From: Klebsiella pneumoniae
GTDB lineage: Bacteria; Pseudomonadota; Gammaproteobacteria; Pseudomonadales; Azotimanducaceae
Assembly (NCBI GenBank): GCA_945861675.1
Contig: CAMAVY010000021.1
Coordinates: 1 to 34,744, forward strand
DNA length: 34,744 bases
Direction of reading: 5' to 3'
The position numbers and the translations under genes were made by a program. Positions 1 to 34,744 of this stretch are shown piece after piece (the first letter of the stretch is position 1; each line of letters starts with the position of its first letter). Under the pieces are notes generated by a model. The model saw only the letters and a list, made by a program, of their open reading frames with translations. It was not told the DNA's origin and made no database searches.

Positions 1-19
1 CTGTACTGATACGTTGAGC

Positions 20-1575: not shown

Positions 1576-1633
1576 TTGAGTGCTGGTGGTATCTGCCCGT
1601 GCATCGCGTCGCGGCGACGAACCGGCTGCCGAC

Positions 1634-3347: not shown

Positions 3348-4027
3348 GTGCGCGATTGCAATCCGCGACGCCCGCAGATGCGCCGCCGGGGCTGCACAAC
3401 GCAACCTGCATCCATAGCGTCGTTGTGCCGTCTGGGGCGCCGTTCATGCGCACCGTGCAACGGGGAGAAACCGTCTGCATCACGGACCTGTACGGCAATC
3501 AGGCCGTCGACACGTTGTTTTTCAATGCAGACGATCCGCGTGAGCGCTATTCGGCTGTAGACACGATCCGCGCGCAGGGCGCGCTGTACCTCAGCACCGG
3601 CACTGTGCTGATCTCCAGCGAGAACCGGCCGATGCTGACCATCGTGCACGACACCTGTGGAAGGCACGACACGCTGGGCGGAGCGTGTGCGGCTGAAAGC
3701 AACATGGTGCGCTACGACCTTGGTACCAAGTTCATGCACAACTGTCGCGACACGTTTCTGCTGGCGATCGCCAACTGGGACGGCGTGCCAATCGATAAAC
3801 GTCACATCAGCGCGAACATCAACTTCTTCATGAACGTTCCGGTCACGCCGGCGGGTCAATTGACGTTCGAAGACGGCATCTCGGAGGCGGGCAAGCGGGT
3901 CGCGTTGCGCGCTGAAATGGATGTGATCATGTTGGTGTCCAACTGCCCGCAGCTGAACAACCCATGCAACGGTTACGACCCGACACCCGTGCAGATAGAC
4001 ATCTGGCGCGAACAGGCCATGGGCTAG
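3344..4027 (+). CDS. cgdB: Carboxyguanidine deiminase subunit B (urea amidolyase-associated protein 2, DUF1989 family)
   Basis: A 227-residue paralogue of the preceding protein, with the same DTCGRHDTLGG signature and NINFF segment, so both subunits descend from one duplicated ancestor. It is expected to pair with CgdA to deiminate carboxyguanidine. The start is GTG at 3344, overlapping the cgdA stop as GTGA, so translation is probably coupled and the two subunits are made in equal amounts. The carboxylase gene follows after 4 bases. The older annotation 'urea degradation protein' reflects the neighbourhood only. Confidence 0.9.
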   Translation: MSARLQSATPADAPPGLHNATCIHSVVVPSGAPFMRTVQRGETVCITDLYGNQAVDTLFFNADDPRERYSAVDTIRAQGALYLSTGTVLISSENRPMLTIVHDTCGRHDTLGGACAAESNMVRYDLGTKFMHNCRDTFLLAIANWDGVPIDKRHISANINFFMNVPVTPAGQLTFEDGISEAGKRVALRAEMDVIMLVSNCPQLNNPCNGYDPTPVQIDIWREQAMG

Positions 4028-4031
4028 CGCC

Positions 4032-7820: not shown

Positions 7821-7830
7821 TGGTGCCGCG

Positions 7831-17786: not shown

Positions 17787-18706
17787 TAGTTCGTCTCGCC
17801 GACCCATATGCAGGTAGGGCAGCCGTCCCGTGCGAGCGCAGCTGTGGCCGCCAGCCGGTCGGCATCAAGCTGATACTGCGGCCCGTCGGCGCGCTCTGTG
17901 CGGCTATCGCCGACGGGGTTCAGCACGTCGATCTTCCAGTTGTCGTCGCTACCCCAGCAGTCAGAGAACTGGCGGATGTCGCCGGGTGTTCGAATGTCCG
18001 CAAATGCCGCCAATGTGCGGGTGAGCAGGTTGTCCTGTTGCGTGGAGTCGAACGGTTTGCCGCTGGTGTGGCCGAGCGGAAAGTCCACGAACACACTGCG
18101 CGGCGCATTCACCGACTGCGTGATGGAGAGTGCGCTGGACATGCAAAGCGTTGGAATGCCGGAAGCTTCCAGTGCTCGCGCGATCAGTCCCACGGACTGA
18201 TGACACACGGGTCAGACCGGGACGAGCAGCGCCAGGTCGGTCTGGTCTTCGCGCAGCCGCTCGATAAGCGCAGGCGCGAGCAGCTCACGCACCTTGCGCG
18301 CGCTATAGATGCCGCCCATGAAGGTGTAGGCGCGCTGTGCCAACGCGCCCAGCACGCCGGCCTGCACCAGCCGCTTCAGCGTGTCCTTTGGAAACACCAC
18401 GTTTGGATCCGCGCGTGCGTCGGACTGATCGTAGGCAAAGTGACTGGTACGCAGCGCCGACGTCGGCGTGTCGGTATCGATGATGCGCAGGCTCACGTCG
18501 TCCTTGTGGTGAAACGCAACCTGGCCCGCAACGTACACACCGCCGGACGCGATGAGCGTCAGCCTGCTTGCGCTGACAGGTTTCTGCAGGGGTACGAAGG
18601 GCGGCGGCGTGGTGTTGTGCACCCAGCTGTAAGGCGTGTAGCCCAGGGCGGTATAGCGTGCCCGGGTCAGTTCAATCTGGTCGATGGGTGGAAGCCGGTT
18701 GGGCAT
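17786..18706 (-). CDS. Selenocysteine-containing glycine/betaine/proline-reductase selenoprotein B-like (GrdB/PrdB family) protein
   Basis: A 306-residue protein if the in-frame TGA at 18212-18214 is read as selenocysteine (residue 165). The sequence across it reads LALLVPV-Sec-PVCHQSVGLIARALE: a UxxC redox pair in the place where GrdB/PrdB-type proteins carry their catalytic Sec or Cys. The frame is open and family-like on both sides: LPPIDQIELTRARYTALGY and HNTTPPPFVPL before, and DFPLGHTSGKP and CWGSDDNWK after. A SECIS-type hairpin begins right after the TGA. ATG 18706 has AAGGAG 7 bases upstream. Proteobacterial members are not part of the clostridial glycine reductase; their substrate is unknown, probably a thiol/selenol-based reduction. 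It sits 75 bases behind an NAD(P)-binding protein gene. Standard gene calling would yield two false fragments (18212-18706 and 17786-18208). Confidence 0.88.
18178..18214 (-). promoter_or_regulatory. Bacterial SECIS element and selenocysteine UGA codon
   Basis: Reading the minus strand from the UGA (18214-18212), nucleotides 16-21 (CAGUCC) pair with 25-30 (GGACUG) around the loop GUG. The stem extends downward through U-A and A-U, one C-C mismatch, then U-G, G-C, U-G and G-C. The loop begins 18 nucleotides after the UGA, contains G, and falls within the 16-37-nucleotide window known for SelB-recognised bacterial SECIS hairpins. Confidence 0.8.
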
Positions 18707-18781
18707 GTGCTGACTCCTTGCCGGTGTTGGCCGGGCCTGATGCTGCGACGTTGGCACCGTTTCGTTCGCGCCGCAATTTGT

Positions 18782-19756
18782 TCAGTTGCCGGTGCTGGCA
18801 GTCCGCGCAGGTATCGCGCCGCCGACCCGCCGCGGCGTGCGCCCCAGCAGTTCCGGCAGTCGATTGTGCGTGGGCACATTGTCATTGCGCAGCAGTTCCC
18901 AGTGCCCGAACGAAAACGGGGTGGCATGCAGCATGTCGCAGACGTGCGCAACCAGGCGTGCCAGCCAGCCCGGCACCGGAACACACCACGCCTGCCGCGG
19001 TGTATGGGCGCGCCGCAGCGCCCGGATGTACTCGCGCAGCGTCATCTCCTGTGGACCACCGAGGTCGTATTCGCGAGCCGTCGCCGCTGCATCCGACGGC
19101 TGCGATGGTGCGCTCGTGCACAGATTGGCCAGCGCCTCCCCCAGCTCACCTACATCCAGTGCGGCAATGCGGCCGCGCGCGTCGGCCGGCACTGCAAACA
19201 GGGTTAATCGCGCCACGGCCCGCAGCCACCAGGCGCCGAATCCGCCTTCACCGTCCAGCAGCGATGGACGAACGATGGACCAATCTGCGCCGCTGGCCTT
19301 GATAGCGGTTTCACCGGCCAGCTTGGACGTTAGAAATCGGCTGCGCGCCCCTGCATGCAGCCCAAGTGCGGATACGTGGATGAAGCGCTTCGTCTGCTCA
19401 CGGCATGCGTGCGCAAGTGCTGCCGGCGCTTCGTGATGTACGCGCCTGTAGGTGGCGCGACCGCGCTGGCGCAGGATGCCTACGCAGTTCAGCACCACGT
19501 CGATATCGCGAATTGCCGGGCGCCAGTGCTCGGCTTGCGTGTGTTCTTCAAAGCGTACGAGGCGCCACGCAAAGCCCAGGGCGACCTCCGGCAGGCGTGG
19601 CTGGATCTGTGTCGGTCGCCGGCTGCCGATGACCACCAACGCACCCTTCGCAATGAGGCTCGCGACCGCATGCCGCCCGATGAATCCCGATCCGCCCAGC
19701 ACCAGTACTTTGATTGGCTGTGTTGGCCCCGGGCAGTCGTGTGTTTCCGGCATCAT
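18782..19756 (-). CDS. NAD(P)-binding atypical SDR (NDUFA9/epimerase-like)
   Basis: A 324-residue extended/atypical short-chain dehydrogenase fold. The N-terminal dinucleotide-binding motif is VLGGSGFIG (about 19-27), followed by VVLNCVGILRQRG, FIHVSALG and SKLAGETAIKASGADWSIVRPS, a pattern typical of NDUFA9-like and NmrA-like proteins whose catalytic Tyr-Lys pair is not conserved. Bacterial homologues are often called complex-I-associated or ubiquinone-related NAD(P)-binding proteins; the role here is unknown. Two adjacent ATGs (19756, 19753) are equally possible and no clear ribosome site is seen. It lies immediately upstream of the selenoprotein gene on the same strand, so co-transcription is likely and an NAD(P)-linked redox partnership is conceivable. 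Confidence 0.82.
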   Translation of the reverse strand: MMPETHDCPGPTQPIKVLVLGGSGFIGRHAVASLIAKGALVVIGSRRPTQIQPRLPEVALGFAWRLVRFEEHTQAEHWRPAIRDIDVVLNCVGILRQRGRATYRRVHHEAPAALAHACREQTKRFIHVSALGLHAGARSRFLTSKLAGETAIKASGADWSIVRPSLLDGEGGFGAWWLRAVARLTLFAVPADARGRIAALDVGELGEALANLCTSAPSQPSDAAATAREYDLGGPQEMTLREYIRALRRAHTPRQAWCVPVPGWLARLVAHVCDMLHATPFSFGHWELLRNDNVPTHNRLPELLGRTPRRVGGAIPARTASTGN

Positions 19757-19843
19757 GTGACGTGGACGCGGGCCGCGGTCGACCGCAGGTGTGCTGCACT
19801 ATAGGCGCCTCGACCAACAGGTTGGCCCGGACTGGAGCAGATA

Positions 19844-19911
19844 GATGACCGGAGCAGGCAGATGACCGGAGCAGGCACATGACCGGAGCAGGCACATGAA
19901 CGGAGCGGGCC
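19844..19911 (+). repeat. 17-bp tandem repeat (4 copies) forming chained mini-ORFs before the cyclase gene
   Basis: Copies: GATGACCGGAGCAGGCA (19844-19860 and 19861-19877), CATGACCGGAGCAGGCA (19878-19894), CATGAACGGAGCGGGCC (19895-19911). A diverged half copy precedes them at about 19829-19843. Every copy contains an ATG plus a GGAG placed 7-9 bases before the next ATG. Each ATG opens a six-codon frame (MTGAGR, MTGAGT, MTGAGT, MNGAGQ) ending in TGA that overlaps the following ATG as ATGA. The last one overlaps the cyclase start at 19913. Confidence 0.9.
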
Positions 19912-19912
19912 A

Positions 19913-22900
19913 ATGAGCGATCAGCAACGCGCATTGCTGAACGAATGGGTGAAGTACGTGCCCGAGCTCATCCTCTCCCGGCTGATGGCGGAAGGGCGGC
20001 CGGACGGTCCGACGCTGGAGGTGACCGAGTGCGCGGTGCTGTTTGTCGATCTCTCCGGCTTCACGCAGCTGACCGAAAACTATGCCCGCCGCGGGCCAGA
20101 GGGCGCGGAACTGCTCACGCGCATCCTCAACGACTTCTTCGGTCGCGTGGTCGATGTGATCCAGTATCACGGCGGCGACGTGGTCAAGTTTGCCGGCGAT
20201 GCAATCACCGCCATCTGGCGCGAAAACGATCACGATGATGGCGACGTGGCACTGACACTGCGTGCCGCCAACGCAGCACTGCAGGTGCGTGCTGCGGTTG
20301 CGGGTTACAACGCGGATGGCCATGCCTTGTCGTTGAAGCTTGCCATTGGCGTAGGTCGCATCGCCGTTGTCCATGTCGGCGGCGAGTTGAATCGATGGGA
20401 GTTCGCGATCTCCGGTGAGCCCATGCATCAGGTGTCCGCAGCGGGTCACCTGGCCGAAGCCAACGATGTGATTGCGTCGCCGCGCGCCTGGGCGCTTATC
20501 GGTCCGTTCGCGGCAGGCGATGCGCTGGCCGATGGTCACTACCGCCTGCAGCAGCTCAATCGCGTGCTCGTTCGCCATGAACCAACACCGATCGAAGTGC
20601 CACTCGAACTCGAAGAAGCCGTACGCAGCTACCTGCCTGCATCGGTCACGCGGCGCATCATCGCGGGTCAGAGCGAGTACATCGGCGAGCTGCGCACCCT
20701 GACGATTCTGTTCGTGAACCTGCCCGACATGCGTTACGACACGCCGCTGGCAGACGCACAGACCGCCATGCGTGGGCTGCAGCGTGCGTTGTACTTTCCG
20801 TTCGAAGGCAGCATCAACAAACTGTCGGTCGACGACAAGGGCGTGACGTTGATTGCGGCTTTGGGCATGCCGCCGTTTGCCCACGAAGACGACCCGTCAC
20901 GCGGCGCACGCGCCGCGCTGGCCATGCATGCGGTGCTGCAGGGCCTGAAGCTGCGCTGCAGCATCGGCGTGACCACGGGGCGCGTGTATGTAGGCACTGT
21001 GGGCAGCCCGCTGCGGCGCGAGTACACGATCATGGGCGACCGGGTGAACCTCGCGGCGCGTTTGATGCAGAACGCGCAGGGCGGCGTGCTGTGCGATGCA
21101 GAAACCCAGGGCCGGGCGCGCGATGACGTGGAGTTCGGTAGCGGCCGTGACATCAGCGTCAAGGGCAAGTCAGAACCGGTGCGCGTGTACGAGCCTTTGT
21201 GTGCCCTGAAGCGCACAACGCGTCGCGAGCAGGGCGGTGCGGCAACCGGGTTGATCGGACGCCAGATCGAACTGGCGCTCATGCAGACCAAGCTCAAAGC
21301 GCTGCTCGACGGCGGACGCAGCGGCACGGTTGTCATAGAGGGTGAAGCGGGGATCGGCAAGTCGCGCCTGCTGGCAGCGTTTCTTGAAGGGGCGGCCGAA
21401 CGTCCGATGCGCGTGCTCACGTCTGCGGCTGATGCGGTTGAACAGTCCACAGGCCACCTGGTGTGGCAGGAACTCCTGTTGCAGTTGCTGCAACTGGGCG
21501 ACGTGGCACCGTCCGCACGTGGCGCGCACGTTCAAAAACTGCTTGCGCACGATGCCGCTATTCACGAGCTGGTGCCGCTGCTCAATGCCATCCTGAATCT
21601 CGATCTGCCGGACAGTGCGCTCACACGTGAGATGAGCGGCGCGGTGCGCGCCAGCAATCTGCACGTGCTGGTCACGAACCTGCTGTCGTTCTCTGCAGCA
21701 CGACAACCGTTGGTGATTGTGATCGACGACGTGCACTGGATGGACTCGGCATCCTGGGCATTGCTGATGGCGGTGTGGCAGCAGGTGTCGCCGGTGATGT
21801 TCGTATTGCTCACTCGGCCGATGGGCGCGTTGCAGCGGCCGGAACTGTCTGCGCTGCGCGCAGACAACAGTGTCCGCAGTGTGCAGCTGGATCGCATGTC
21901 GCCCGACGACACAGTAACGCTGGTCGCACGCCGGTTGGGCGTTGGCAGCCTGCCCGCAGACGCTGCGCGTTTCATTCGCGAACGCGCCGAGGGTCATCCG
22001 TTCTTCGCCGAGGAAATCGGCTATGCGTTGCGCGATGCGGGCTTTCTGCACATCGAGAACGGCACGTGCACGGTACGCGAAGGCCAGAGCCTTGAGCACA
22101 CCAACCTGCCCGGTACAGTCGAAGGCATCATCACCAGCCGCATCGACCGGTTGTCGCCACCCGAGCAGTTGACGCTGAAGGTGGCCAGCGTGATCGGCCG
22201 AACCTTCTCGACCGGGTTGCTTCACGATGTGTTTCCGCAGGAATCGGAACGCGAGCATCTGGGTGCGCATCTCGATGTGTTGCGCGGGCTCGATCTGACG
22301 CCGTTCGAATCTGCGGCGTCAAAGGACCTGTATCTGTTCAAACACATCGTGACGCAGCAGGTGGCCTACGACCTCATGCTGCGTGAACAACGCAAGCAAC
22401 TGCATCGCAGTGTGGCCGCCTGGTACGAACGTGAACGTGCCTTTGAACTACCGCAGTTTCATGGGCTGCTTGCGCATCACTGGTCGCAGGCGGATGAGCC
22501 AGCCAAGGCCATCGAGTATCTGGAACTGGCCGCGGAAAACGCCTGCGCCGCCAACGCGAACACCGAGGCGCTGCGCTTGCTCGATGAGCTGGATGCACGC
22601 CTCGCGGCCATGGCCCAGGCTGCCGCGTTGGCGCCATCGGGCGCAAGCAACCTGAGCCAGGCATTCAAGCGCGCACATCGGTTGCGGCTGCGCGCAACGG
22701 CGAATCACTCGCTGGGGCGATTGGAGCCGACCGAGTCTGCGCTGCGATCCGCGATGTCGGCGCTGGCATTGCCGATGCCGACAGGTAACGGGCGCGTGAT
22801 GTTGCGCGTTGTGCGCGAGTTGCTCGTACAGATCAGCCATCGCAGGTTCGGCATGCCGAAGGCACCAAGCAATGCCGATGAGCGTCGGCGGCTGGTGCTC

Positions 22901-24055
22901 GGCAGTGTGGTCTCGGAAGAGCTGTTCCTGGTCTATTTCTTCAACAATGATGTGCCGAACCTGCTGCTGTCGACCCTGCAGGCAATCAACCTGTCCGAAA
23001 AAGCGAATGAGGTTTCGCCGGGTCTGATTCGCGGCTACGTGAGCTTCGCCATTGCGCTGGAAGCGATCCCGTTGCGGGGCGTTGTCGATGCGTATATGCA
23101 GCGCGCTCGGGAAGCCCTGCTCGTTCAGGAAAACCAATCGATTCGCGCCTGGGCGCATCTGGCGTTCACCGTGGTCGCGGCCGGTCGGGCGCAGTGGCAG
23201 CGCGCGGAGGAAATGACGGCGGTTGCGATGCAGATCAATCGTCAGCTGGGTGACCATCGTGGCTGGGAAGAGTGCGCCGCCAACATCGAACTGATCCGCA
23301 ACATGTATGGGCGCTTCGATTCTCCTGAGGAAGCGCTTGTGAACGCGGTGCTTGAGTCGGGGCTGCGCCGGCAGTCCATTCAGGTGCAAGGCTGGGGTTA
23401 CGCACTCAAGGCGCTGCTTGCGCATCACCAGCAGCGTATTGAAGACATGCGTGCGCCACTCGCGTCGTTCATGGCCGATGTTGATCCCGATCCGGCGTTC
23501 TCCGATGAGATCAATCGCCTCGAGGCGATCGGCCTTGCGGGGCAGCTAGCGGTGCATGATCAGGATTGGCAGCGCGCGCGTGAACTGCTCATGCGTGGCG
23601 CCGGGGTCATCAAGGCACTCGGGCTGCCGAGCCAGTTCCGCATTGTCACTGCCACGCAACTGTACGCAGAAGGTGCGTTGGAGTTCTGGCGTTGTCACCC
23701 GGACGAAACGCTGGCGCCAGCCTGGATCGAAACCGCGCTTGGCTTCATCGGCGCTGCAGCGCGCAGTTTTTCAGTCGTTCGGCCGAAGCTGAACTGGTTG
23801 CGCGGCAAGCATGCGCTGTACGAAGGCAAAACCAAACGTGCATGGCAGTACTGGAAAAAGAGCAGCGAATTGGCGGTTACCCTGGACATGCCCTACGACG
23901 AATTGCTGGTCGCCTGCGCGCGCTCGCAACTGCTGCATGACCTGGCCGCCGGCGCGCGCGTGACCGCGTTGCGGGCACGCATGCGCACGGGGCTGCCGTT
24001 GGAGGTGGCCCATCTGCTGCCAGCAGACGTGCCGAATGCACCCCGGGCGCGTTAG
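19913..24055 (+). CDS. Soluble-adenylyl-cyclase-like class III cyclase with AAA/STAND ATPase and helical repeats
   Basis: A 1,380-residue cytosolic protein with the domain order of mammalian soluble adenylyl cyclase. Cyclase domain C1 (about 37-225) has metal Asp46 (FVDLSGF), Lys92 and Asp96 (VKFAGDA). C2 (about 260-430) lacks the metal Asp (FVNLPD) but keeps adenine-side Lys303 (INKLSVDDKG) and Asn379/Arg383 (GDRVNLAARL). One composite C1-C2 active site is therefore expected to make cAMP. Next come a nucleotide-binding domain (GEAGIGKSR at 477-485; IDDVHWMDSASW about 604-615) and a long TPR-like helical C-terminus. Such ATPase/TPR parts usually regulate. ATG 19913 overlaps the last mini-ORF of a tandem-repeat leader as ATGA, with GGAG in the last repeat as ribosome site. 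The bicarbonate Arg of human sAC seems to be Ser here. Confidence 0.9.
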   Translation: MSDQQRALLNEWVKYVPELILSRLMAEGRPDGPTLEVTECAVLFVDLSGFTQLTENYARRGPEGAELLTRILNDFFGRVVDVIQYHGGDVVKFAGDAITAIWRENDHDDGDVALTLRAANAALQVRAAVAGYNADGHALSLKLAIGVGRIAVVHVGGELNRWEFAISGEPMHQVSAAGHLAEANDVIASPRAWALIGPFAAGDALADGHYRLQQLNRVLVRHEPTPIEVPLELEEAVRSYLPASVTRRIIAGQSEYIGELRTLTILFVNLPDMRYDTPLADAQTAMRGLQRALYFPFEGSINKLSVDDKGVTLIAALGMPPFAHEDDPSRGARAALAMHAVLQGLKLRCSIGVTTGRVYVGTVGSPLRREYTIMGDRVNLAARLMQNAQGGVLCDAETQGRARDDVEFGSGRDISVKGKSEPVRVYEPLCALKRTTRREQGGAATGLIGRQIELALMQTKLKALLDGGRSGTVVIEGEAGIGKSRLLAAFLEGAAERPMRVLTSAADAVEQSTGHLVWQELLLQLLQLGDVAPSARGAHVQKLLAHDAAIHELVPLLNAILNLDLPDSALTREMSGAVRASNLHVLVTNLLSFSAARQPLVIVIDDVHWMDSASWALLMAVWQQVSPVMFVLLTRPMGALQRPELSALRADNSVRSVQLDRMSPDDTVTLVARRLGVGSLPADAARFIRERAEGHPFFAEEIGYALRDAGFLHIENGTCTVREGQSLEHTNLPGTVEGIITSRIDRLSPPEQLTLKVASVIGRTFSTGLLHDVFPQESEREHLGAHLDVLRGLDLTPFESAASKDLYLFKHIVTQQVAYDLMLREQRKQLHRSVAAWYERERAFELPQFHGLLAHHWSQADEPAKAIEYLELAAENACAANANTEALRLLDELDARLAAMAQAAALAPSGASNLSQAFKRAHRLRLRATANHSLGRLEPTESALRSAMSALALPMPTGNGRVMLRVVRELLVQISHRRFGMPKAPSNADERRRLVLGSVVSEELFLVYFFNNDVPNLLLSTLQAINLSEKANEVSPGLIRGYVSFAIALEAIPLRGVVDAYMQRAREALLVQENQSIRAWAHLAFTVVAAGRAQWQRAEEMTAVAMQINRQLGDHRGWEECAANIELIRNMYGRFDSPEEALVNAVLESGLRRQSIQVQGWGYALKALLAHHQQRIEDMRAPLASFMADVDPDPAFSDEINRLEAIGLAGQLAVHDQDWQRARELLMRGAGVIKALGLPSQFRIVTATQLYAEGALEFWRCHPDETLAPAWIETALGFIGAAARSFSVVRPKLNWLRGKHALYEGKTKRAWQYWKKSSELAVTLDMPYDELLVACARSQLLHDLAAGARVTALRARMRTGLPLEVAHLLPADVPNAPRAR

Positions 24056-27169: not shown

Positions 27170-27655
27170 TCAACGCCGCTGCGTTTGAAACGCCCGATCC
27201 GCCTTCTTGCCGCGATACACCGTCATGTCGATGGCGCGCAGCACGTCCGGCACCAGCCGGAACAGCAGCCGCGGTTCAGTGCGCATGTTGGCGAAGAAGG
27301 CGTCAGTACGCGGCGCATTGGCCGGGTCGCCGTGCCCGATGTATTTGTCAGCCAGCAGCCGGGAGATCGGCCAGATATCAAACGCCGGCAGCTCATGCGG
27401 GGTACAGCTACCGTCTGCTTCCACGTGACCGGCGGCGGGCGTCAGGGTCTCAATGCACAACGAAGCACGTGGATCAGCCAGCAGTTGCTTGCACCACACG
27501 CGTGGGTAGGTGCCGGTGATCCAGAACGCGTCTTCGTGCCACAACCACCAGACCGGCACCGTATAAGGCCGCCCATCGCGACGCAGCGTCGCCAACACCC
27601 CCACGAAGGGTTGCTGCAGAAACGCGTCGAGCATGTCCGATTGCATGCGGGGCAT
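27170..27655 (-). CDS. Pyridoxamine-5'-phosphate-oxidase-like (split-barrel flavin-binding) protein
   Basis: About 161 residues from ATG 27655. The split-barrel PNPOx pattern is visible: FLQQPFVGVLATLRRDGRPYTVPVWW near the start, then FWITGTYPRVWCKQLLADPRASLCIE. Family members bind FMN, F420 or heme and act on small redox substrates; the cofactor cannot be told here. Three possible ATGs (27655, 27646, 27634) exist with no clear ribosome site; 27655 is preferred because it keeps the most sequence without overlapping the upstream gene. It ends with a basic tail, GKKADRAFQTQRR. It lies 40 bases behind the hydratase gene on the same strand. Confidence 0.75.
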   Translation of the reverse strand: MPRMQSDMLDAFLQQPFVGVLATLRRDGRPYTVPVWWLWHEDAFWITGTYPRVWCKQLLADPRASLCIETLTPAAGHVEADGSCTPHELPAFDIWPISRLLADKYIGHGDPANAPRTDAFFANMRTEPRLLFRLVPDVLRAIDMTVYRGKKADRAFQTQRR

Positions 27656-27695
27656 GGGCTGTGTCTCGTGGGTGCTTGGCGGCTGTCGGAAGAGC

Positions 27696-28454
27696 TCAGC
27701 CGGTGAACGTGACAGTAACTTCGCCCAGACCGCTGAAGCTGCCCACATAGGTGCCGGTGCCTGCGTTGTTGCTGCGGGTGAACGCGCCCGTGATTACATG
27801 CATGCCGGCGTCCAGCGCCAGGCCGAATTTCGACAGTTCACGTGCCAGCGCTGCAAGCGATGCGAAGTGATCGTCGATGTGTCCGGCGGCGTGCACTGTT
27901 TCCTGCAGCGCGCCATCGAGATGCTGGGTCACCACGATCGAGGCCAGGTCTGGTGCATTCACAAGCGCCAGCTCCGGGCCGATGACGATGCCCCATTGCG
28001 ACAGATTGTCGGCGACGCGAACGCCGCTGTCGGCGCCGCCATCGGTGCGCTTCTGGTTCAGCTCAAAGGCAGGCATGACCGCGGCGACGGCGCTTCTGGC
28101 CTCGGCGGCCGTTACGTCTTTGCCTTGCAAACGTGCGCCGATGCGAAAGCACACCTCGGTTTCAAGACCAAGATTCGGAATGCTGGCCGCGGGAATCTGC
28201 GCGCCACTGGTAAAGATGCGCTGCTTGAGCACGTTGCCGAATGGCCGGATGCCCGGTCCGAATGCATTGCGGGATTGCCCGGAGGTGAGCCCGACCTTCC
28301 AACCACCCAGCTCAAGACCTTGCGCGCGCCATCGATCCAGCACCGCAAGCTGGATGCCTTCGCCTTCTTCGACAGTGATGCTGCCCGACAAGTGATTGGC
28401 CTGCGTGCTGCCCACTTGTTGACCCTGCCAGAACAACTCGAGATGGGGATGCAC
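27696..28454 (-). CDS. 2-keto-4-pentenoate hydratase/decarboxylase-like (fumarylacetoacetase-fold) enzyme
   Basis: About 252 residues. It resembles the MhpD/XylJ/DmpH hydratases and 4-oxalocrotonate decarboxylases of meta-cleavage pathways. Visible are GWKVGLTS, GLETEVCFRIG with the metal-binding Glu cluster, VMPAFELNQKR, and the C-terminal GTGTYVGSFSGLGEVTVTFTG. The start is assigned to GTG 28454 because AAGGAG lies 9 bases upstream; a TTG at 28463 touches that ribosome site and is less likely. The gene begins 5 bases after the stop of the SDR gene, so the pair is an operon, possibly for degradation of an aromatic-derived or keto acid. Confidence 0.82.
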   Translation of the reverse strand: MHPHLELFWQGQQVGSTQANHLSGSITVEEGEGIQLAVLDRWRAQGLELGGWKVGLTSGQSRNAFGPGIRPFGNVLKQRIFTSGAQIPAASIPNLGLETEVCFRIGARLQGKDVTAAEARSAVAAVMPAFELNQKRTDGGADSGVRVADNLSQWGIVIGPELALVNAPDLASIVVTQHLDGALQETVHAAGHIDDHFASLAALARELSKFGLALDAGMHVITGAFTRSNNAGTGTYVGSFSGLGEVTVTFTG

Positions 28455-28459
28455 TGCAC

Positions 28460-29416
28460 TCAACTCCTTCCGATATCTGTTGTTGCTGCATTCGCAGCAG
28501 CGCGCAACTCAGCTGCCAAGCCTGGATGCACGTTGGGGTAGCGATGATCGGCGATGGCCTGTGCGCGCGCCAGTTGGCTGGTGCGGACATCGTCGTGCGG
28601 GAACACGTAGAACCGACCGCTGCGAATGCTGTCCAGCACGCAGGCTGCAACTTCGGCAGGCGGCATGCCGTTCGCCAGGGCCGCGTTGTAGTTGTTCAGC
28701 AACGACTGTGCGGCAGCATTGCTCGGCGGAGCAGAAGCGCCGAACTCCGCTGGGCGATTGCGTGCCGCCTGCATGACCAGTGTGTTCACGGCACCCGGAC
28801 ACAGCACCGACACACGGATGTTGGCGCCCGCAATTTCCAGATCCTGGGCGAGATTCTCGGTCAGACCCAGGGCGGCGAACTTGGACGCGTGGTAAACGCC
28901 GACGAAGGGGCGCGGTGAGAAGGCGGCTTCCGACGCCGTATTCACAATGTGCGCGGCCTGGCCCTGCGCCAGCATGCGCGGCACGAAACTGCGTGCGCCA
29001 TTGGCGAGGCCCAGTACGTTGACGGCGAATACCCAGCGCCACTCGGCGTCGGTCTGTTCCCAGACCGGCGCAAAACGACCGGTCACGCCGGCGTTGTTGC
29101 ACAGCACATGAACTGCGCCGAACTCCGAGAATGCACGTTCGGCCAGTGCGTCCACCTGCTCGGGGCGCGTCACGTCGCATACCTGCGCCACGATTCGGCC
29201 GTTGGTGGATTTGGTGGATTTGGTGGGGATGCTCTGCGCGGCGCGTTGCAACGCCTCGGCTTCGACGTCGGCCAGAACGACATGCATCTCAGCATCGGCA
29301 AAGGCCTGCGCCAATGCCAGACCGATACCGCTGGCGGCGCCTGTGACAACTGCGACCTTTCCTGCCTGAAGCAGGCCTGCCTGAAGAGGACCGGGCTGTA
29401 GAAGCTCCCTGCTCAT
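28460..29416 (-). CDS. Short-chain dehydrogenase/reductase (SDR)
   Basis: A 318-residue classical SDR: TGAASGIG cofactor motif (about 25-32), CNNAGV, catalytic Ser in NTASEAAFS and Tyr-Lys in YHASK, then LCPGAVNT. The acidic residue after strand 2 (VVLADVEAEAL) suggests NAD preference. Two small in-frame duplications show at DNA level: a 15-base repeat near the start (PLQAG-LLQAG) and a 9-base repeat giving TKS-TKS-TNG around residue 68. ATG 29416 overlaps the stop of the upstream GHKL gene as ATGA, so it is translationally linked to an apparently unrelated regulatory protein. Confidence 0.9.
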   Translation of the reverse strand: MSRELLQPGPLQAGLLQAGKVAVVTGAASGIGLALAQAFADAEMHVVLADVEAEALQRAAQSIPTKSTKSTNGRIVAQVCDVTRPEQVDALAERAFSEFGAVHVLCNNAGVTGRFAPVWEQTDAEWRWVFAVNVLGLANGARSFVPRMLAQGQAAHIVNTASEAAFSPRPFVGVYHASKFAALGLTENLAQDLEIAGANIRVSVLCPGAVNTLVMQAARNRPAEFGASAPPSNAAAQSLLNNYNAALANGMPPAEVAACVLDSIRSGRFYVFPHDDVRTSQLARAQAIADHRYPNVHPGLAAELRAAANAATTDIGRS

Positions 29417-29880
29417 GAATCGGCTCTCCTGTTCGGGTTCAGCCGCAACCGTATGCGGTTGCGGTCATCCTGGTAGACATAGCTTGCGCTGTCGGACAAC
29501 TGTGCAAGCAGTACGGCACCAAGCCTGCCGACGGGTCGGTCTTCTACGGCGAGGTCTGTTGTTGCGAGCTGCTGATCGCGCAGCCATTGGAAGGGATCGT
29601 AGGGCGCGGCATCGTCTTCGTAGGTCAGGGCCACGTCGCCATCGGGCAGCAACTCAAGCTGAACGCGGATGCGGGTTCTGACAGGCGATGCACTTTCCAA
29701 AGCGTTACGTTCCTGAACGCCGTGGCGCAATGTGTTGGTATAGAGTTCCTCCAGCATCAGGACCAGTGTGAGTGCAGTTCTGTGGCTGAGACCAAGTGTC
29801 AGGGCGCGCGCTTCCAGCTCAGCCGTTGCGCGCGCCAGTGCTGCTTCGGTTGCATCCCAATTGGCCGTGTAGTGCTGCAC
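29413..29880 (-). CDS. Anti-sigma-factor-type GHKL ATPase (RsbW/SpoIIAB-like)
   Basis: A 155-residue HATPase_c_2 protein. The N box is EELYTNTLRHG (about 45-55), the G1 box is DDAAPYDPF, and the G2 region is VGRLGAVLLAQLSD, all weaker than in histidine kinases, as usual for anti-sigma kinases. Such proteins bind and release a sigma factor or another partner and phosphorylate an STAS antagonist. No STAS gene is in the window, but a SpoIIE-type phosphatase is encoded nearby (32067-34286), the enzyme that would dephosphorylate the antagonist. The start is GTG 29880. It diverges from the FecR gene across about 127 bases and overlaps the SDR gene downstream as ATGA. Confidence 0.85.
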   Translation of the reverse strand: MQHYTANWDATEAALARATAELEARALTLGLSHRTALTLVLMLEELYTNTLRHGVQERNALESASPVRTRIRVQLELLPDGDVALTYEDDAAPYDPFQWLRDQQLATTDLAVEDRPVGRLGAVLLAQLSDSASYVYQDDRNRIRLRLNPNRRADS

Positions 29881-30007
29881 GTTGCGGCTCGTGGATCAGG
29901 TTTGGTTGAGTTGGACCGCATGGTTGCCGTTTCCATGAGAGCTGGCAACCAGAGGCAGTGCAGACGATTCGGAAGTGCGCGAGTTTCCTCAACAGTGAGT
30001 GGTGAAT
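29881..30007. promoter_or_regulatory. Divergent promoter region between GHKL ATPase and FecR genes
   Basis: 127 bases separate the two divergent starts and must drive both. No operator palindrome stood out by eye. Confidence 0.4.
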
Positions 30008-30520
30008 ATGAGCAGTAAGCGAGTCAGGGTGTGGTGTAGAAACGTGGGCATGAGCCTGCTGGTCGGCGCATTGGGATCGGCATCGTTGTCGATGCTGTCT
30101 CTGGACGCAGTCGCAGCGGTCGCTGCCGGGGTGTCCCCTGCCGGCATGGCGTCCGCGGGCATGGTCAAACGACTTGTCGGCGCGGTGACCGTCGTGCGCG
30201 GTGGCCAGAGCATGCCTGCAAGCGTAGGCATGCAGGTGCTGGCGGGGGATGAATTACGGACGGCGCGCGGTGCGAGCTTGGGCGTGACATTCGCCGACAA
30301 TTCCGTAGTGTCGCTGGGACCGAACAGCCGGTACAGCGTCGAGCGGTTCCGCTTCAATTCCACGACCCATCAAGGCGAATTCGTCTCGCGGCTCGGTCGC
30401 GGCTCGTTGGCGATGGTGTCGGGCAAGCTTGCGAAACAGTCGCCGGATGCGGTGACCGTGCGCACCCCGTCGACCATGCTCGGTGTGCGTGGCACGCATT
30501 TCGTGGTGGACGTGCAATGA
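30008..30520 (+). CDS. FecR-domain secreted/periplasmic protein
   Basis: About 170 residues. The first 45 are a long signal-peptide or membrane-anchor-like region (KRVRVWCRN, then a hydrophobic stretch, ending AVAAVAAGV). The FecR beta-sandwich follows: VKRLVGAVTVVRGGQSMPA, GMQVLAGDELRTARGASLGVTFADNS, VVSLGPNSRYSVERF, and TPSTMLGVRGTHFVV. FecR domains in this setting are extracytoplasmic and often sit beside CHASE2-containing sensors, as here. ATG 30008 is chosen; two GTGs just upstream (29999, 30002) are possible. The stop overlaps the OmpA-like gene as ATGA. Confidence 0.85.
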   Translation: MSSKRVRVWCRNVGMSLLVGALGSASLSMLSLDAVAAVAAGVSPAGMASAGMVKRLVGAVTVVRGGQSMPASVGMQVLAGDELRTARGASLGVTFADNSVVSLGPNSRYSVERFRFNSTTHQGEFVSRLGRGSLAMVSGKLAKQSPDAVTVRTPSTMLGVRGTHFVVDVQ

Positions 30521-31161
30521 GCCCGCGCGCGCTGTCATTCAGGTTGGGCCGCTGCGCAGCGTTGGTGTTTGCGTTGTTGGCCGGGTCGCTCGTCGCAGGC
30601 TGCGCTAGCGATCGCGTTGTGCTGTTGCCGAATGCAGACGGCCACGCCAGCAAGCTGGTTGTTCAACACGGTGTCGCACAGACCGAGCTGGCGGCGCCTT
30701 ACGCGGCGGTCTCGGTGAGTTCAAGCGGACGCCCGACACGCAGTACCGCAAGCGAAGCCGACATTCAGAAGAAGTACGGCGCCTTGCTTGCGGCCATGCC
30801 GGTGCTGCCCGGCAGCTATGTGATGAACTTCGCCACTGACGCGATCGATGCGGCATCGCCGGAAGCACAGGCGGAGTTGAACCGCGCGCTACAGGACATC
30901 GCCATCCGCGCTGCGCCTGAGATCACCATCATCGGCCACACCGACGAAGTAGGCGATGTTGAGTACAATGACAAGCTGTCGCTGGAACGCGCGGCCGTGA
31001 TTGCCGAACAGGTGCGGCGCCGGCTGGCGTCGTTGAAGCTCGACGCGCGGCAGGTCGATGTTGCCGGACGTGGCGAACGTGAACCCTTGCCAGCCATCGA
31101 AGGCGAAACTGCAGAGCGGCAGAACGCGCGCAATCGACGCGTCGAGATCAACGTGCGTTGA
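30517..31161 (+). CDS. OmpA-family peptidoglycan-binding lipoprotein
   Basis: A 214-residue lipoprotein. The signal sequence ends in the lipobox LVAGC (Cys near residue 29). The C-terminal OmpA/Pal domain (about 105-214) contains ITIIGHTDEVGDVEYNDKLSLERA, with the Asp and Arg that bind diaminopimelate in peptidoglycan, and ends with QNARNRRVEINVR. It anchors the outer membrane to the cell wall or senses wall state. It is coupled to the FecR gene by ATGA overlap, so the two probably work together in the envelope. Confidence 0.9.
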   Translation: MSPRALSFRLGRCAALVFALLAGSLVAGCASDRVVLLPNADGHASKLVVQHGVAQTELAAPYAAVSVSSSGRPTRSTASEADIQKKYGALLAAMPVLPGSYVMNFATDAIDAASPEAQAELNRALQDIAIRAAPEITIIGHTDEVGDVEYNDKLSLERAAVIAEQVRRRLASLKLDARQVDVAGRGEREPLPAIEGETAERQNARNRRVEINVR

Positions 31162-31175
31162 TCGGGTTTGCTGGT

Positions 31176-31205
31176 CCGGTCCGGCAACCTGCGCTGCAGG
31201 ACCGG
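31176..31205. terminator. Possible bidirectional terminator between the OmpA-like and barrel genes
   Basis: CCGGTCC (31176-31182) pairs with GGACCGG (31199-31205). An alternative small hairpin CCTGC-GCT-GCAGG lies inside at 31188-31200. It sits in the 102-base gap between two convergent genes. No T-tract. Confidence 0.35.
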
Positions 31206-31263
31206 GTGTCAGTGCAGTTGCGTCATGCTGGAAGCGCCGCTTTCGCAACACCTCCAGTCTCGA

Positions 31264-31851
31264 TCAACGCAGCTCAAGCCGCGCCGACGCGGCCGTTGTG
31301 AACACGTCGGCGTTGTCGTCCGTGGACACTGCCAGGCCTACAGAGAACGCAGGCGTGAAGTGGTAGCGCCCCGACACGTTGAAGCCGTAGTCGCCTTCGT
31401 CGTCAATGTCTGTGTAGTCGATTCCCGCACCCCACTCAACTTGCTCGGTGACCATGCCACGCAGACCCAGGCCCACATTGAGGCCGTTGTCGTTGCCTGC
31501 ATCTTCGGCATCTACCTTTACCCACGACAGTGTGCCGACAACGTCCAGGTTGTCCTGCAGCGGCAGGTGCGCGCCAACACCGACTTGATACGAATCGAAG
31601 TCTGCATCGACATCGCTGTGGTTGAAGTCGACCTTGGTGTGGCCATAACTTGCGATCGCGAACAAGCTTTCCGTGAACGCGAATGAGCCGGACAGGCCGA
31701 TGCCGCCGCCATCAAAGTCGACATCACCCGTCTCGCCCATAACGCGCGCGTAACCTGCTTCACCGTAGGTGTAGCTGAGCTCATCTGCATGTATTGCGCC
31801 CGTAAGACCGAACACCGGCACCAGAACCAGTAGTGATTTCATTGACAACAT
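31264..31851 (-). CDS. Small outer-membrane beta-barrel protein
   Basis: About 195 residues. Signal peptide SLLVLVPVFGLTGAIHA, cleaved before DELSYTYGE. The mature part alternates polar and hydrophobic residues in repeated strands (GGGIGLSGSFAFTESLFAIAS, then YQVGVGAHLPLQDNLDVVGTLSW) with many Asp in the loops, typical of 8-strand OmpW/opacity-like barrels. It ends in SARLELR rather than with the usual terminal aromatic residue. ATG 31851 has GAGGA about 10 bases upstream; a further in-frame extension upstream lacks a signal peptide start. Its function is unknown. It stands between the OmpA-like and phosphatase genes of the envelope locus. Confidence 0.8.
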   Translation of the reverse strand: MLSMKSLLVLVPVFGLTGAIHADELSYTYGEAGYARVMGETGDVDFDGGGIGLSGSFAFTESLFAIASYGHTKVDFNHSDVDADFDSYQVGVGAHLPLQDNLDVVGTLSWVKVDAEDAGNDNGLNVGLGLRGMVTEQVEWGAGIDYTDIDDEGDYGFNVSGRYHFTPAFSVGLAVSTDDNADVFTTAASARLELR

Positions 31852-32066
31852 ATGCGTTTGATCCTCAGAGAGTGAACCAGACAAGGCTCGAACAATCCGG
31901 ACGCTGGCAGCGGAAAGCAGCACGCCGTCGTGCACCTTGTGGCATGCGTGTCGTTCGAGTGAAGTCAGGGTGCAACCCAAGGGCTGAACTCAAACTGAAT
32001 GAAATTCACTGAGCAGGTGCGCGCCTGGATGAACAAGCAGCATCTGCAGCGCGTTGCAGCGGCTGC

Positions 32067-34286
32067 TCAAAGCGTTGGTGGCGGCGGGCCCTGCCACGTC
32101 AACGCGACCATTGCGATGTCGTCTGGCAACTCCGTGCCATTGGCAAACGCGAGCACGTCTACGTGCAGCGCGTCGATCAGCTCGGCCGCTGTCGCGCGCT
32201 TCGCTGCATCGCCGTGCATGCCGCGTTGCACGAGCGCTTCGAATCGATCCCGCCCATACAAGTGCCCAGCGGCATCCTGCGCCTCGGTGACACCATCGGT
32301 GATCAACAGCAGTTGATCACCCGCGTGCAGCGTGAATGAGGCAGAGGTGAACACATAGTCATCCAGCACACAGATAGGCGGCCCGCCGCCATCCTCGAGC
32401 AGCTGCACGCGCGGCCTGTGTTCGCTTGCATCTGGGTCTGCGCGCCGAACGATGATGGGTGTTTCATGCCCGGCGTTGACATAGCGGCCGTGGCCGTCGC
32501 GCAGGTCGATGACGAACGCCGCCAGCGTCATGAACATCAGTTCGCTGTTTTCGCGGCTGATCTCGAGTTGCGCGCGGATGATCACCTCAGCCAGCGCTGC
32601 GTCATCGCGCAACGCACTGCTCTTCGTCAGCGACTTCGCCAGCGCCATGAACAGGCTTGCGGGGACGCCTTTGCCCGACACGTCGCCGATGCTCACGAAC
32701 AGGTGATCGGCGTCGAGCATGAAGAAGTCGTACAGATCGCCACCCACGCTGCGCGCAGGCAGGATGAACGCAGCCACATCCACACGGCGTTCGTTGGCCA
32801 GCACAACAGCGGGCTTCGGCAGCAGCCCGAGCTGAATGCGCTGAGCTGCTGCAAGTTCGCCTTGTACGCGTGCCTGCGCCTCGCGTTGCACCGCGAGGTC
32901 CCGAGCCAGGCGCCGGCGATTGCGTTCGGTGTCCGCCAGTGTCAGCGACAACATGATGGCGAACAGCATGGCGACTGCGATGCCTGGATTCACGACATCC
33001 ATCAACCAGCCCAGTTCCTGAAAGGCGAACAGACCCGCAGCAACGAGCAATCCGACTACGCCGATCAGCAGTAGCGATGCCTGCAGCGCACTCAGCCGTG
33101 GCACCGCGAAGACGACGAGCAATGCCAACAGAAACGCTACGCACGCTTCTGCGGCAAGGGCGAACGACGGCCGAAAGATGAGCCGTCGATCGAGCACGTT
33201 CTCCAGCACTTCAGCATGCACTTCAACGCCAGCGCGGCGATCACCCAGCGGCGTGCTGACGACGTCCAGCAGTCCGTGGGCGTAGAACCCGATCAACACC
33301 AGCTTGTTGGTGAGTGCATCGTTGTGGACCTTGCCTGCAAGTACGTCGGCAGCGCTCAGAATGCGCTCGGGCTGGAAGGGCGCAAAGTGCACCCACATGC
33401 GTGCATCGGGATCTGTGCGCGCCAGGAACCCTGCAACCTCGGCGCTGCGTACGCCGCTGCTGTCCGTTGCGAAGTTGAGTGCGGGCGCTGACGCGGCGAC
33501 GCGCAGAAGGTCCATGGACAGCGCCGGCCATAGCGAAGCGTCCACACGGCTGAGCAGACCAACGCGCCGAACCACACCGCCCTCGGGTTCCGAGCTCAGC
33601 GCGGCAACCCCGGCGGCCGCAGCTTCCAGCGCTGGCAATGAACGCAACGCGCCACGGTAGCGTGTCAGCTGGTCGATGGGGTCGGGCCCTGTGATGCGCA
33701 CGGCCGGCAGTGCATTGTGCAGCGTGTTGCCGTTCAGCTTTTCCAGCAATGCATCGTTGTGCAGCGTGGCACCAAGCACAACCGGCGCATCAAACAGTGC
33801 GGCGGCAAGCTGATCATCGTGGTGCGGCAGCGCTTGCAGCGCACGTGCCAGATCCGTCTTCACGCTTGCATGCTGCGCCTGCGCGATTACCTGTCGCATG
33901 TGCAACGCCACTTGTTCCGGCGAACTGCGGTCCGGTTCTGCAAACACGATGTCGACGCCGATCGCGATCGGGTGCGCTGCATTGATGGCCCGGATCAGGC
34001 GCGCGAACTGATCACGCCCCCAGGGCCACTGGCCGTAGCGATGCACTGCGGCCTCATCGATGGCGACGATGGTGACCGGGTTGCTGTGGCGTACACGCGG
34101 CAGCAGACGTTGATAGGCATCGAAGCTCGTGCGCTGGCCGGGTGCGAGCCATTGCGGCAACAGCAGTGGCGTGAGTAGCACTGCCGTCAACACGGTGACC
34201 ACGGGCAACCAGCGCAGCAGCAGCCAACGCATGGCTGTGTGCGGCGCCTGCTCGTGTGGATTGGTCACGGGCAGACCGTCAGACAT
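32067..34286 (-). CDS. CHASE2 sensor - SpoIIE/RsbU-type PP2C serine phosphatase
   Basis: A 739-residue membrane sensor phosphatase. One N-terminal membrane helix (about 20-45) is followed by a periplasmic CHASE2 domain (about 50-350; IVAIDEAAVHRYGQWPWGR, then IAIGVDIVFAEPD), three membrane helices (about 370-450), a short coiled stretch (RNRRRLARDLAVQREAQARV) and the SpoIIE phosphatase domain (about 490-739). Metal motifs are intact: GGDLYDFF, IGDVSGKGVPASLFMA, TDGVTEA and PDDIAMVAL. It should dephosphorylate an STAS antagonist in response to an envelope signal, matching the RsbW-like ATPase encoded at 29413-29880. ATG 34286 has GGAG just upstream and overlaps the preceding gene's end by 8 bases (ATGTCTGA), so translation is coupled. 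Confidence 0.9.
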   Translation of the reverse strand: MSDGLPVTNPHEQAPHTAMRWLLLRWLPVVTVLTAVLLTPLLLPQWLAPGQRTSFDAYQRLLPRVRHSNPVTIVAIDEAAVHRYGQWPWGRDQFARLIRAINAAHPIAIGVDIVFAEPDRSSPEQVALHMRQVIAQAQHASVKTDLARALQALPHHDDQLAAALFDAPVVLGATLHNDALLEKLNGNTLHNALPAVRITGPDPIDQLTRYRGALRSLPALEAAAAGVAALSSEPEGGVVRRVGLLSRVDASLWPALSMDLLRVAASAPALNFATDSSGVRSAEVAGFLARTDPDARMWVHFAPFQPERILSAADVLAGKVHNDALTNKLVLIGFYAHGLLDVVSTPLGDRRAGVEVHAEVLENVLDRRLIFRPSFALAAEACVAFLLALLVVFAVPRLSALQASLLLIGVVGLLVAAGLFAFQELGWLMDVVNPGIAVAMLFAIMLSLTLADTERNRRRLARDLAVQREAQARVQGELAAAQRIQLGLLPKPAVVLANERRVDVAAFILPARSVGGDLYDFFMLDADHLFVSIGDVSGKGVPASLFMALAKSLTKSSALRDDAALAEVIIRAQLEISRENSELMFMTLAAFVIDLRDGHGRYVNAGHETPIIVRRADPDASEHRPRVQLLEDGGGPPICVLDDYVFTSASFTLHAGDQLLLITDGVTEAQDAAGHLYGRDRFEALVQRGMHGDAAKRATAAELIDALHVDVLAFANGTELPDDIAMVALTWQGPPPPTL

Positions 34287-34744
34287 CCAGCTCCATGCCG
34301 TCGTAGGCGGCAGAGACGCGCAGTGCTGCGCGGTCGTCGCGGGTGATTTCTTCCAGGCGTTGGGTCTCCGCAAGAATGGCCGCGATGCGCGCGTCATCGA
34401 ACACGGGTTCGTGATGAAACAGCACCAGGTGCCGCGCGCCAGCCATCTGACATAGTTCCACTCCGACCACATTGCTTGAGTGGCCCCAGTCTTCCTTCAT
34501 GGACACTGCGTCGGCCAGTGAGTACATGGCGTCGAACACCACCACGTCGGCGTTGCGAAAGAACGCTGCGAACGCATCCATCTGCGCAATGTCTTCCGGC
34601 TTGTGTTCCGAGTCGGTGGTGTACACGCATACGCGATCCTGATGCTCGAGCCGATAGCCGTACGAGTCGCCTTCGTGCAGTTGCAGTTTGGGCGTGACCT
34701 GCACACCGGCAATCGCGCGTATTTCGCCCGGTGTCAGCTGTACG
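34279..34744 (-). CDS. Metallo-beta-lactamase-fold hydrolase, C-terminal part (runs off window)
   Basis: At least 154 residues, open to the window edge; the start lies beyond. The fragment shows the second half of a metallo-beta-lactamase fold: GDSYGYRLEHQDRVCVYTTD (the metal-bridging Asp region), VVFDAMYSLADA, WGHSSNVVGVELC with the conserved His, and LVLFHHEP with the final metal His pair. The substrate is unknown; related proteins include phosphodiesterases. It overlaps the CHASE2-phosphatase gene by 8 bases, so it is part of the same transcript. Confidence 0.82.
   Translation of the reverse strand, partial: VQLTPGEIRAIAGVQVTPKLQLHEGDSYGYRLEHQDRVCVYTTDSEHKPEDIAQMDAFAAFFRNADVVVFDAMYSLADAVSMKEDWGHSSNVVGVELCQMAGARHLVLFHHEPVFDDARIAAILAETQRLEEITRDDRAALRVSAAYDGMELDV

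Follow-up and report, generated by a model that had tools for sequence, protein, structure and literature searches.

The stretch of DNA considered here, referred to as the window, is the whole of a contig of 34,744 bases (C21; CAMAVY010000021.1), one of 343 in a genome deposited as Klebsiella pneumoniae, and toward its end lie the genes of what is probably an envelope-sensing “partner switch.” An RsbW/SpoIIAB-type GHKL kinase, an anti-sigma-type ATPase of 155 residues, is encoded on the reverse strand at 29413..29880 (Pfam HATPase_c_2, 5.6e-10). The gene layout places a divergent intergenic region (29881..29998) between it and a forward-strand gene for a small, probably exported FecR-domain protein of 173 residues (29999..30520; FecR, 6.3e-12), which has a second in-frame ATG at 30008; the divergent order of these two genes is also seen in most complete loci of relatives. 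The start of the next forward-strand gene, for a probable OmpA-family lipoprotein of 214 residues (30517..31161; OmpA, 4.7e-11), overlaps the FecR stop by 4 nucleotides. On the reverse strand, a membrane CHASE2-SpoIIE phosphatase of 739 residues follows (32067..34286; CHASE2, 1.1e-45; SpoIIE, 3.4e-40), and its start, placed at the ATG at 34286 by alignment with relatives, overlaps the stop of a gene for a metallo-beta-lactamase-fold (MBL) metallohydrolase. This last gene is cut by the contig end, leaving only its C-terminal half (34279..34744, reverse strand; Lactamase_B_2, 1e-9). Between the OmpA and phosphatase genes the window also carries a small OMP_b-brl/Ax21-like barrel protein (reverse-strand frame 31264-31980, start likely near 31842; OMP_b-brl, 9.7e-12), which matches the NCBIfam OmpO family at 1.3e-13, under the cut-off.

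An earlier reading of the window, made from its sequence alone, had named five of these genes, those for the RsbW-like ATPase, FecR, OmpA, the barrel, and the CHASE2-SpoIIE phosphatase, and all five have significant Pfam matches. That reading lacked a STAS antagonist and proposed that it be sought elsewhere in the genome. A genome-wide search returned six STAS matches, one of them on a contig of 5,262 bases (C279), where a single-domain STAS gene on the forward strand (locus L008, 4352-4771; PF01740, 1.2e-17; NCBIfam ant_ant_sig, 68 bits, over the cut-off) stands directly upstream of the N-terminal half of an MBL gene truncated by the end of the contig (L008, 4768-5262, forward strand), the STAS stop overlapping the MBL start. 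The two MBL pieces tile the intact protein of a relative, that on C279 corresponding to residues 1-170 and that on C21 to residues 173-323, and when the contigs are joined with a one-base overlap the MBL frame reads through. Contig C108 holds the third MBL match of the genome, a paralogue at 30 percent. Because the two halves tile one intact MBL, the STAS gene is set two genes upstream of the phosphatase gene, so that the missing antagonist, a single-domain STAS protein with a phospho-acceptor serine, is present and linked, here by way of a junction that we infer. The unit thus runs STAS-MBL-CHASE2/SpoIIE, then the convergent OmpA-FecR pair, then RsbW; the MBL gene between the STAS and phosphatase genes had gone unmentioned in the sequence-only reading, whose gene set was to that extent incomplete. 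Of the seven HATPase_c_2 matches in the genome, the RsbW protein of the window is the sole free-standing one, the other six lying in frames of 504-1180 residues. A second switch-like pair occurs in the same genome on contig C157 (L017, 1219-2555), in which a SpoIIE protein of 282 residues is followed by a protein of 163 residues with a weak STAS match.

Comparison of the cassette proteins across relatives, with matches at or below 40 bits or 85 percent model coverage excluded from residue counts, indicates that the residues expected of such a switch are well retained. In the STAS family, all 66 sequences retain S70 and S71, and S71 aligns with the SpoIIAA serine in a profile alignment to the PDB, a residue that we take to be Ser58 in SpoIIAA numbering. 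The SpoIIE residues D517, D535, G538, K539, and G540 are found in 60/60 and D722 and D723 in 59/60, so the phosphatase has the metal-binding aspartates of a PPM/SpoIIE enzyme (D517, D535, D722, and D723). In RsbW, residues E44, N49, D89, G118, and G121 are invariant (45/45), giving the RsbW/SpoIIAB-type GHKL kinase an intact N-box, with the caveat of an arginine, R119, in the G2 box of the window protein. The MBL residues H108, H110, D112, H113, H188, D209, and H253 are present in 81/81 sequences, including 10 MBLs that occur with no switch.

The folds tell a similar story. The RsbW family profile matches RsbW (PDB 6m36, 3.6e-10) and SpoIIAB (about 6e-6), and the STAS profile matches TM1442 (7.7e-18) and SpoIIAA. 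The predicted RsbW structure has a predicted local distance difference test (pLDDT) score of 89.6, and its top Foldseek matches are SpoIIAB, RsbW, and UsfX. A sequence search of the PDB with the MBL at 1e-8 gave no match, leaving fold matches only. For its model (pLDDT 83.5, poor over 244-258) the closest folds are those of an ELAC homologue, YhfI, RNase Z, an arylsulfatase, and PhnP, followed by the beta-lactamase PNGM-1, yeast PDE1, and Apyc1, so that its neighbors in fold space are mostly phosphodiesterase-type MBLs.

Evidence that these genes belong together comes from their recurrence in other genomes. Named genomes were scanned with the MBL alignment, and the best 80 of 388 relatives were analyzed, with gene presence taken as a match over 40 bits and gene order as the order of open reading frame midpoints. 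All six genes occur in 48/80 of these MBL-selected loci, 42 of them in identical order; the other 32 comprise 15 cut by a contig end, 7 partial sets, and 10 in which the MBL stands alone. The hosts include Duganella, Pseudoduganella, Rugamonas, Noviherbaspirillum, Panacagrimonas, Nevskia, and many betaproteobacterial metagenome-assembled genomes (MAGs). A second sample, comprising 200 genomes from the order of Duganella sacchari, was searched with the phosphatase of that species at 1e-60; 20 genomes matched, and 19 of them carry all six genes, a lower bound for the 200, with up to five candidates scored per genome. The query genome itself has the cassette (L116), and of the 19 other loci 18 are complete for the six genes at a threshold of 30 bits, one of their RsbW matches being weak at 48 bits; the remaining one is a CHASE2-cyclase locus with FecR and OmpA. 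The two samples share several genomes, and the gene used for selection differs between them. Recurrence of the six genes in 48/80 MBL-selected and 18/19 phosphatase-selected loci puts the arrangement far beyond chance, and it bears out the neighborhood conservation that had been suggested as a check; the phosphatase and the ATPase, whose failure ever to co-occur in relatives would have counted against a joint function, are found together in the cassette loci.

The cassette is also found in scattered other Gammaproteobacteria. In one genome of the same class as the window genome and another family (G226), STAS, MBL, and CHASE2-SpoIIE genes stand in a row, with OmpA and FecR on the opposite strand and then RsbW, and this genome shares its MBL with a groundwater Gammaproteobacteria MAG (L080). 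Among the 145 genomes nearest to that of the window, 37 have a phosphatase match (up to seven candidates scored per genome), and of 14 such loci inspected by eye, 11 matched through SpoIIE, in response-regulator or other-sensor proteins, and three through CHASE2, in proteins with cyclase-like ends. In a class-wide search of 370 genomes at 1e-45, at least six had a match, a lower bound with two candidates scored per genome: the window genome itself, G226 with a full orthologue, and four with CHASE2-cyclases. A single-protein scan of genome contigs with the phosphatase gave 16 pattern matches and no confirmed relative, and 15 plasmid records had a phosphatase match, in each case over less than 80 percent of the query.

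Three Duganella loci can be aligned with cassette-bearing relatives at about 77 to 90 percent over the MBL and both flanks, but they lack the STAS gene to one side of the MBL and the phosphatase, OmpA, FecR, and RsbW genes to the other, and their breakpoints are much alike; a single event in a shared ancestor may account for all three. Whole-genome searches with the phosphatase at 1e-40 found no match in two of these three genomes. Similarly, in the order of G226 the MBL is present in 11 of 36 genomes and the phosphatase in four, all of them among the 11. Five of the genes are therefore present or absent together, and the MBL can occur without them. Across 26 non-redundant loci, the pairwise divergences of the six families are correlated at 0.71 to 0.87, as co-inheritance predicts. 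The barrel does not share in this pattern: searched for with a one-sequence model at 1e-5, it had no listed match in the neighborhoods of the 80 MBL-selected loci and is rejected as a component. Thus, of the three envelope proteins that the sequence-only reading placed between ATPase and phosphatase, FecR and OmpA hold up and the barrel falls away. Beyond the six genes, the same loci yield no seventh gene family common to different clades; the two largest outside clusters are frames antisense to cassette genes, and other shared flanks occur only among close relatives, as in Duganella. In one order, several genomes encode a protein of about 132 residues (L071, 1137-1535; L078, 8982-9383) next to the MBL, whether or not the switch is present; its L071 copy was scanned with no Pfam match.

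On the sensing side of the cassette, the FecR protein has a hydrophobic N-terminus, and OmpA has a lipobox-like LVAGC followed by alanine, a simple lipobox pattern being found in 32/57 orthologues, which suggests that it is a lipoprotein. In the phosphatase, a simple scan finds hydrophobic segments on both sides of CHASE2; in the G226 orthologue it detects the one that follows CHASE2 but not the one that precedes it. That CHASE2 sensors and FecR-domain proteins are frequent neighbors, as the sequence-only reading stated, is seen both in the cassette loci and with other outputs. Among loci that pair CHASE2 with a class III cyclase, two have FecR and OmpA (L055 and L205), two have FecR (L056 and L058), and one has neither in the stretch examined (L057), and in pBN1 a CHASE2 protein with no recognized output has both genes adjacent. 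The presence of FecR and OmpA beside CHASE2-cyclases fits their membership of the sensing side.

Published systems provide parallels. In Campylobacterota, CHASE2 adenylate cyclases are described as clustering with a FecR-domain outer-membrane protein and a cyclic AMP phosphodiesterase (PMC9239204). CHASE2 lies there beside FecR much as in the cassette, and the cyclase-type loci found here sometimes have OmpA as well, whereas the output of these clusters is a class III cyclase and that of the cassette is SpoIIE with STAS and RsbW. The BiofilmReg operon of Burkholderia contaminans pairs a LysM-FecR periplasmic protein, thought to bind peptidoglycan, with a CHASE2 histidine kinase (PMC5192318). 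The likeness is again that of a CHASE2 sensor with a periplasmic FecR-domain protein; in contrast, it acts through a histidine kinase and response regulator, its FecR is fused to LysM, and the operon as published is without STAS, RsbW, or MBL, whereas the cassette output is SpoIIE and the FecR protein of the window has no LysM match. Finally, RsbU-type phosphatases are reported to be activated through a coiled-coil linker and dimerization, the proposed basis of exchangeable sensors (PMC12143880). Together, the CHASE2-cyclase loci, the published CHASE2/FecR parallels, and the RsbU linker work support the view that FecR-OmpA-CHASE2 is a sensor module, here joined to a partner switch.

The switch itself resembles the RsbU-RsbV-RsbW and SpoIIE-SpoIIAA-SpoIIAB systems of Bacillus, with which it shares a SpoIIE-type phosphatase, a STAS protein with a conserved serine, and a GHKL kinase of SpoIIAB/RsbW fold. 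It differs from them in that its phosphatase has a membrane CHASE2 domain, FecR, OmpA, and MBL belong to the set, and no sigma gene recurs with it. The FecI-FecR-FecA surface signaling systems share the FecR domain, but theirs is a membrane FecR with a cytoplasmic anti-sigma part whereas that of the cassette is a protein of 173 residues, probably exported, and FecI and FecA families were absent from the window genes scanned and from the recurrent neighbors in the 80 loci. The BspP protein of Burkholderia glumae (PMC7444824) was considered as a counterpart and rejected, since it is a fused SpoIIE-HATPase protein with PDC2 and PAS sensors.

From these observations we consider it likely, with a probability of roughly 0.77, that the locus represents most of a six-gene envelope-sensing partner-switch cassette comprising STAS, MBL, CHASE2-SpoIIE, OmpA, an exported FecR, and RsbW. 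Its gene content, order, conservation, residues, and folds are directly established, and the sequences support the presence of a full partner-switching set, that is, a SpoIIE phosphatase, a STAS antagonist, and an RsbW-type kinase, together with a CHASE2 sensor and envelope proteins. By analogy with its family and from the conserved residues, RsbW would phosphorylate STAS at the serine equivalent to that of SpoIIAA while holding its own partner protein. FecR and OmpA, as the constant neighborhood suggests, would relay changes in the periplasm, peptidoglycan, or outer membrane to CHASE2, and the resulting alteration of CHASE2, if the RsbU analogy holds, would cross the membrane segments and a helical linker to switch on a SpoIIE phosphatase dimer. 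Dephosphorylated STAS could then bind RsbW and free its partner. The physical path of the signal through FecR and OmpA is an inference within this scheme.

Several observations weigh against so complete a picture. The junction between C279 and C21 is itself a reconstruction from sequence. Seven of the 80 loci lack at least one part despite continuing sequence (L096, L100, L102, L114, L126, L140, and L157), and two of these, L100 and L114, have FecR and OmpA with no adjacent RsbW match. In the search of the 145 nearest genomes, the protein of the window is alone among the listed matches in spanning CHASE2 as well as SpoIIE. The neighborhoods of the 80 loci show no recurrent sigma factor or other target that could be cognate to the switch. 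Moreover, position 119 of the window RsbW, usually the second glycine of the G2 box (Gly in 43/45), is arginine, and its G1 box reads DDAA; because of these two changes, the kinase activity of this protein is possibly weak or absent. A stronger form of this concern is that the homologue in the window genome is a non-kinase that only sequesters partners, and that the switch is partly degenerate. Beyond the arginine and the loss of the G1 glycine, such a view could call on the low identity (34 to 36 percent) between the window RsbW and its four nearest relatives in the first alignment and on the barrel gene that interrupts the cassette. We nevertheless judge it rather improbable: N-box E44 and N49 and also D89 are intact, the G1 glycine varies in relatives too, the G2 change is shared by L103, and the predicted RsbW fold is confident.

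A doubt of about the same modest weight concerns the envelope proteins, which might be passengers, with CHASE2 alone sensing and the convergent FecR-OmpA pair merely adjacent. The two genes are on the strand opposite to the phosphatase, and four loci (L096, L102, L126, and L157) have no FecR/OmpA pair beside it though the sequence continues. Yet each of the 19 phosphatase-selected loci, the cyclase variant as well as the 18 cassettes, has both FecR and OmpA; CHASE2 proteins with other outputs are in some cases flanked by FecR or by the pair; and both are gone along with the switch in the three Duganella loci, all of which favor the sensor module and make the passenger role doubtful.

What the cassette controls is a further issue. 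The sequence-only reading had counted a sigma factor or other output among the missing pieces, and no sigma-factor gene recurs with the cassette in the 80 loci; encoding the sigma factor with the switch is common, if not strict, in RsbU/V/W systems. The window genome has 16 sigma region 2 matches, and among its genes is an RpoS-like one, truncated at a contig end and under its cut-off (NF004207, E 4.9e-104). The HsbR-HsbA and CrsR-CrsA systems are Gram-negative partner switches, as the cassette would be, and act on a lifestyle regulator; their target is RpoS, HsbA also binding FlgM (PMC6482189), and HsbR and CrsR fuse receiver, phosphatase, and kinase in one protein, whereas the cassette has a separate RsbW gene and no receiver domain match in its phosphatase. 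RpoS might accordingly be proposed as the target here too, and a promoter-like motif could be added in its favor: a -10-like CTAnAAT lies upstream of RsbW in 28/69 regions (some genomes counted twice) and within 200 bases upstream of STAS in 26/86, including that on C279 in the window genome. A C preceding TAnAAT is a sigma-S hallmark, and it is found at 28/31 such sites toward RsbW, 26/36 upstream of STAS, and 8/42 in control upstream regions, although the enrichment by Fisher test is overstated, given the relatedness of the loci and the double counting of some records. Against this, CTAnAAT also occurs in genomes with no RpoS match over the cut-off (L196, L199, L200, and L204), and no -35 element stands out for these sites (mean best match 2.75 versus 2.65 in shuffles), so the motif is rejected as a sigma-S mark. 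Only 8/19 cassette genomes exceed the RpoS cut-off, and of the 11/19 that do not, a count in which incomplete assemblies could conceal some RpoS genes, one (G694) is apparently a complete chromosome (same length as CP019169.1). With the fused layout of HsbR and CrsR absent from the locus as well, action of the switch on RpoS is very improbable, and RpoS is rejected as a general target, though it could hold in some species. The partner of RsbW is either encoded outside the cassette or is the MBL, and is generally not RpoS.

The MBL is the only in-cassette candidate for an output because it is the sole cytoplasmic non-switch protein of the six. In that event RsbW or STAS would bind the hydrolase and change its activity, and the target would be an enzyme, not a sigma factor. 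The genes for STAS and MBL overlap in the window genome, G226, and Duganella flavida, the metal-ligand residues of the MBL are kept throughout, and no other target is nearby. The MBL is present in all 18 SpoIIE-type loci among the 19 selected by phosphatase, while it stands alone in 10/80 loci, and 7/11 MBL-bearing genomes of one order have no phosphatase match; an MBL without the switch, but no SpoIIE-type locus without the MBL, is the asymmetry expected of an effector with an added regulator. The three switch-less Duganella MBLs also depart from conserved columns at 1 to 3 positions, versus 0 to 1 in those with the switch, and are more divergent (84 versus 91 percent identity). Overall, however, switch-less MBLs depart in 1 to 3 of 101 columns versus 0 to 3 in cassette-bearing sister groups, so that no clear sign of a lost MBL interface is seen in the 101 cassette-conserved columns of MBL-only genomes, and an MBL that merely shares an operon explains the same data. 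The MBL as output is thus a conjecture, unlikely on present evidence. A broader and equally speculative proposal, to which we give little credence as a whole, is that dephosphorylated STAS or freed RsbW gates an MBL of RNase Z/phosphodiesterase fold, coupling envelope state to hydrolysis of nucleic acids or nucleotide signals, and that FecR-OmpA-CHASE2 is a portable sensor for phosphatase, cyclase, and histidine-kinase outputs.

No published description of the six-gene cassette was found in the literature searched, most subscription journals and bioRxiv preprints being outside its reach. The parts are of known kinds; their combination and its wide, ordered conservation appear to be new. As a compact switch of six genes in near-fixed order, found in at least 19/200 genomes of the Duganella order, the cassette ties a little understood FecR-OmpA-CHASE2 neighborhood to a defined readout, the phosphorylation of one STAS serine, by which the signal of CHASE2 becomes a testable question. 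Similar sensor genes with the cyclase outputs seen here and with the published histidine kinase amount to a natural experiment in how one sensor serves different outputs, and the target of RsbW becomes a concrete question with an in-cassette candidate, the MBL.

Some further features of the window and of the loci compared with it deserve mention. An SDR gene (28460-29416) starts within the RsbW stop with a 4-nucleotide overlap and is followed by FAA_hydrolase-like and PNPOx genes (27170-28463 also lies in this region), so that RsbW may be co-transcribed with metabolic genes in this genome; no SDR/FAA_hydrolase/PNPOx-type neighbor recurs across the 80 MBL-selected loci. Elsewhere in the window are a protein of 1380 residues that combines a class III cyclase domain with an AAA_16 ATPase domain (19913-24055) and a run comprising a GntR-aminotransferase regulator and then DUF1989, urea carboxylase-like, and allophanate hydrolase-like genes (2-9705). 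In the partial-cassette MAG L096, a GAF-SpoIIE, RsbW, and STAS cluster (18016-20675) adjoins a frame that by eye resembles an extracytoplasmic function (ECF) sigma factor, and forms a partner switch of its own, close to the six-gene type. The loci on three MAG contigs whose record titles give Klebsiella pneumoniae (L081, L088, and L092) are closely related to loci of unclassified Gammaproteobacteria MAGs, and these organism names look wrong.

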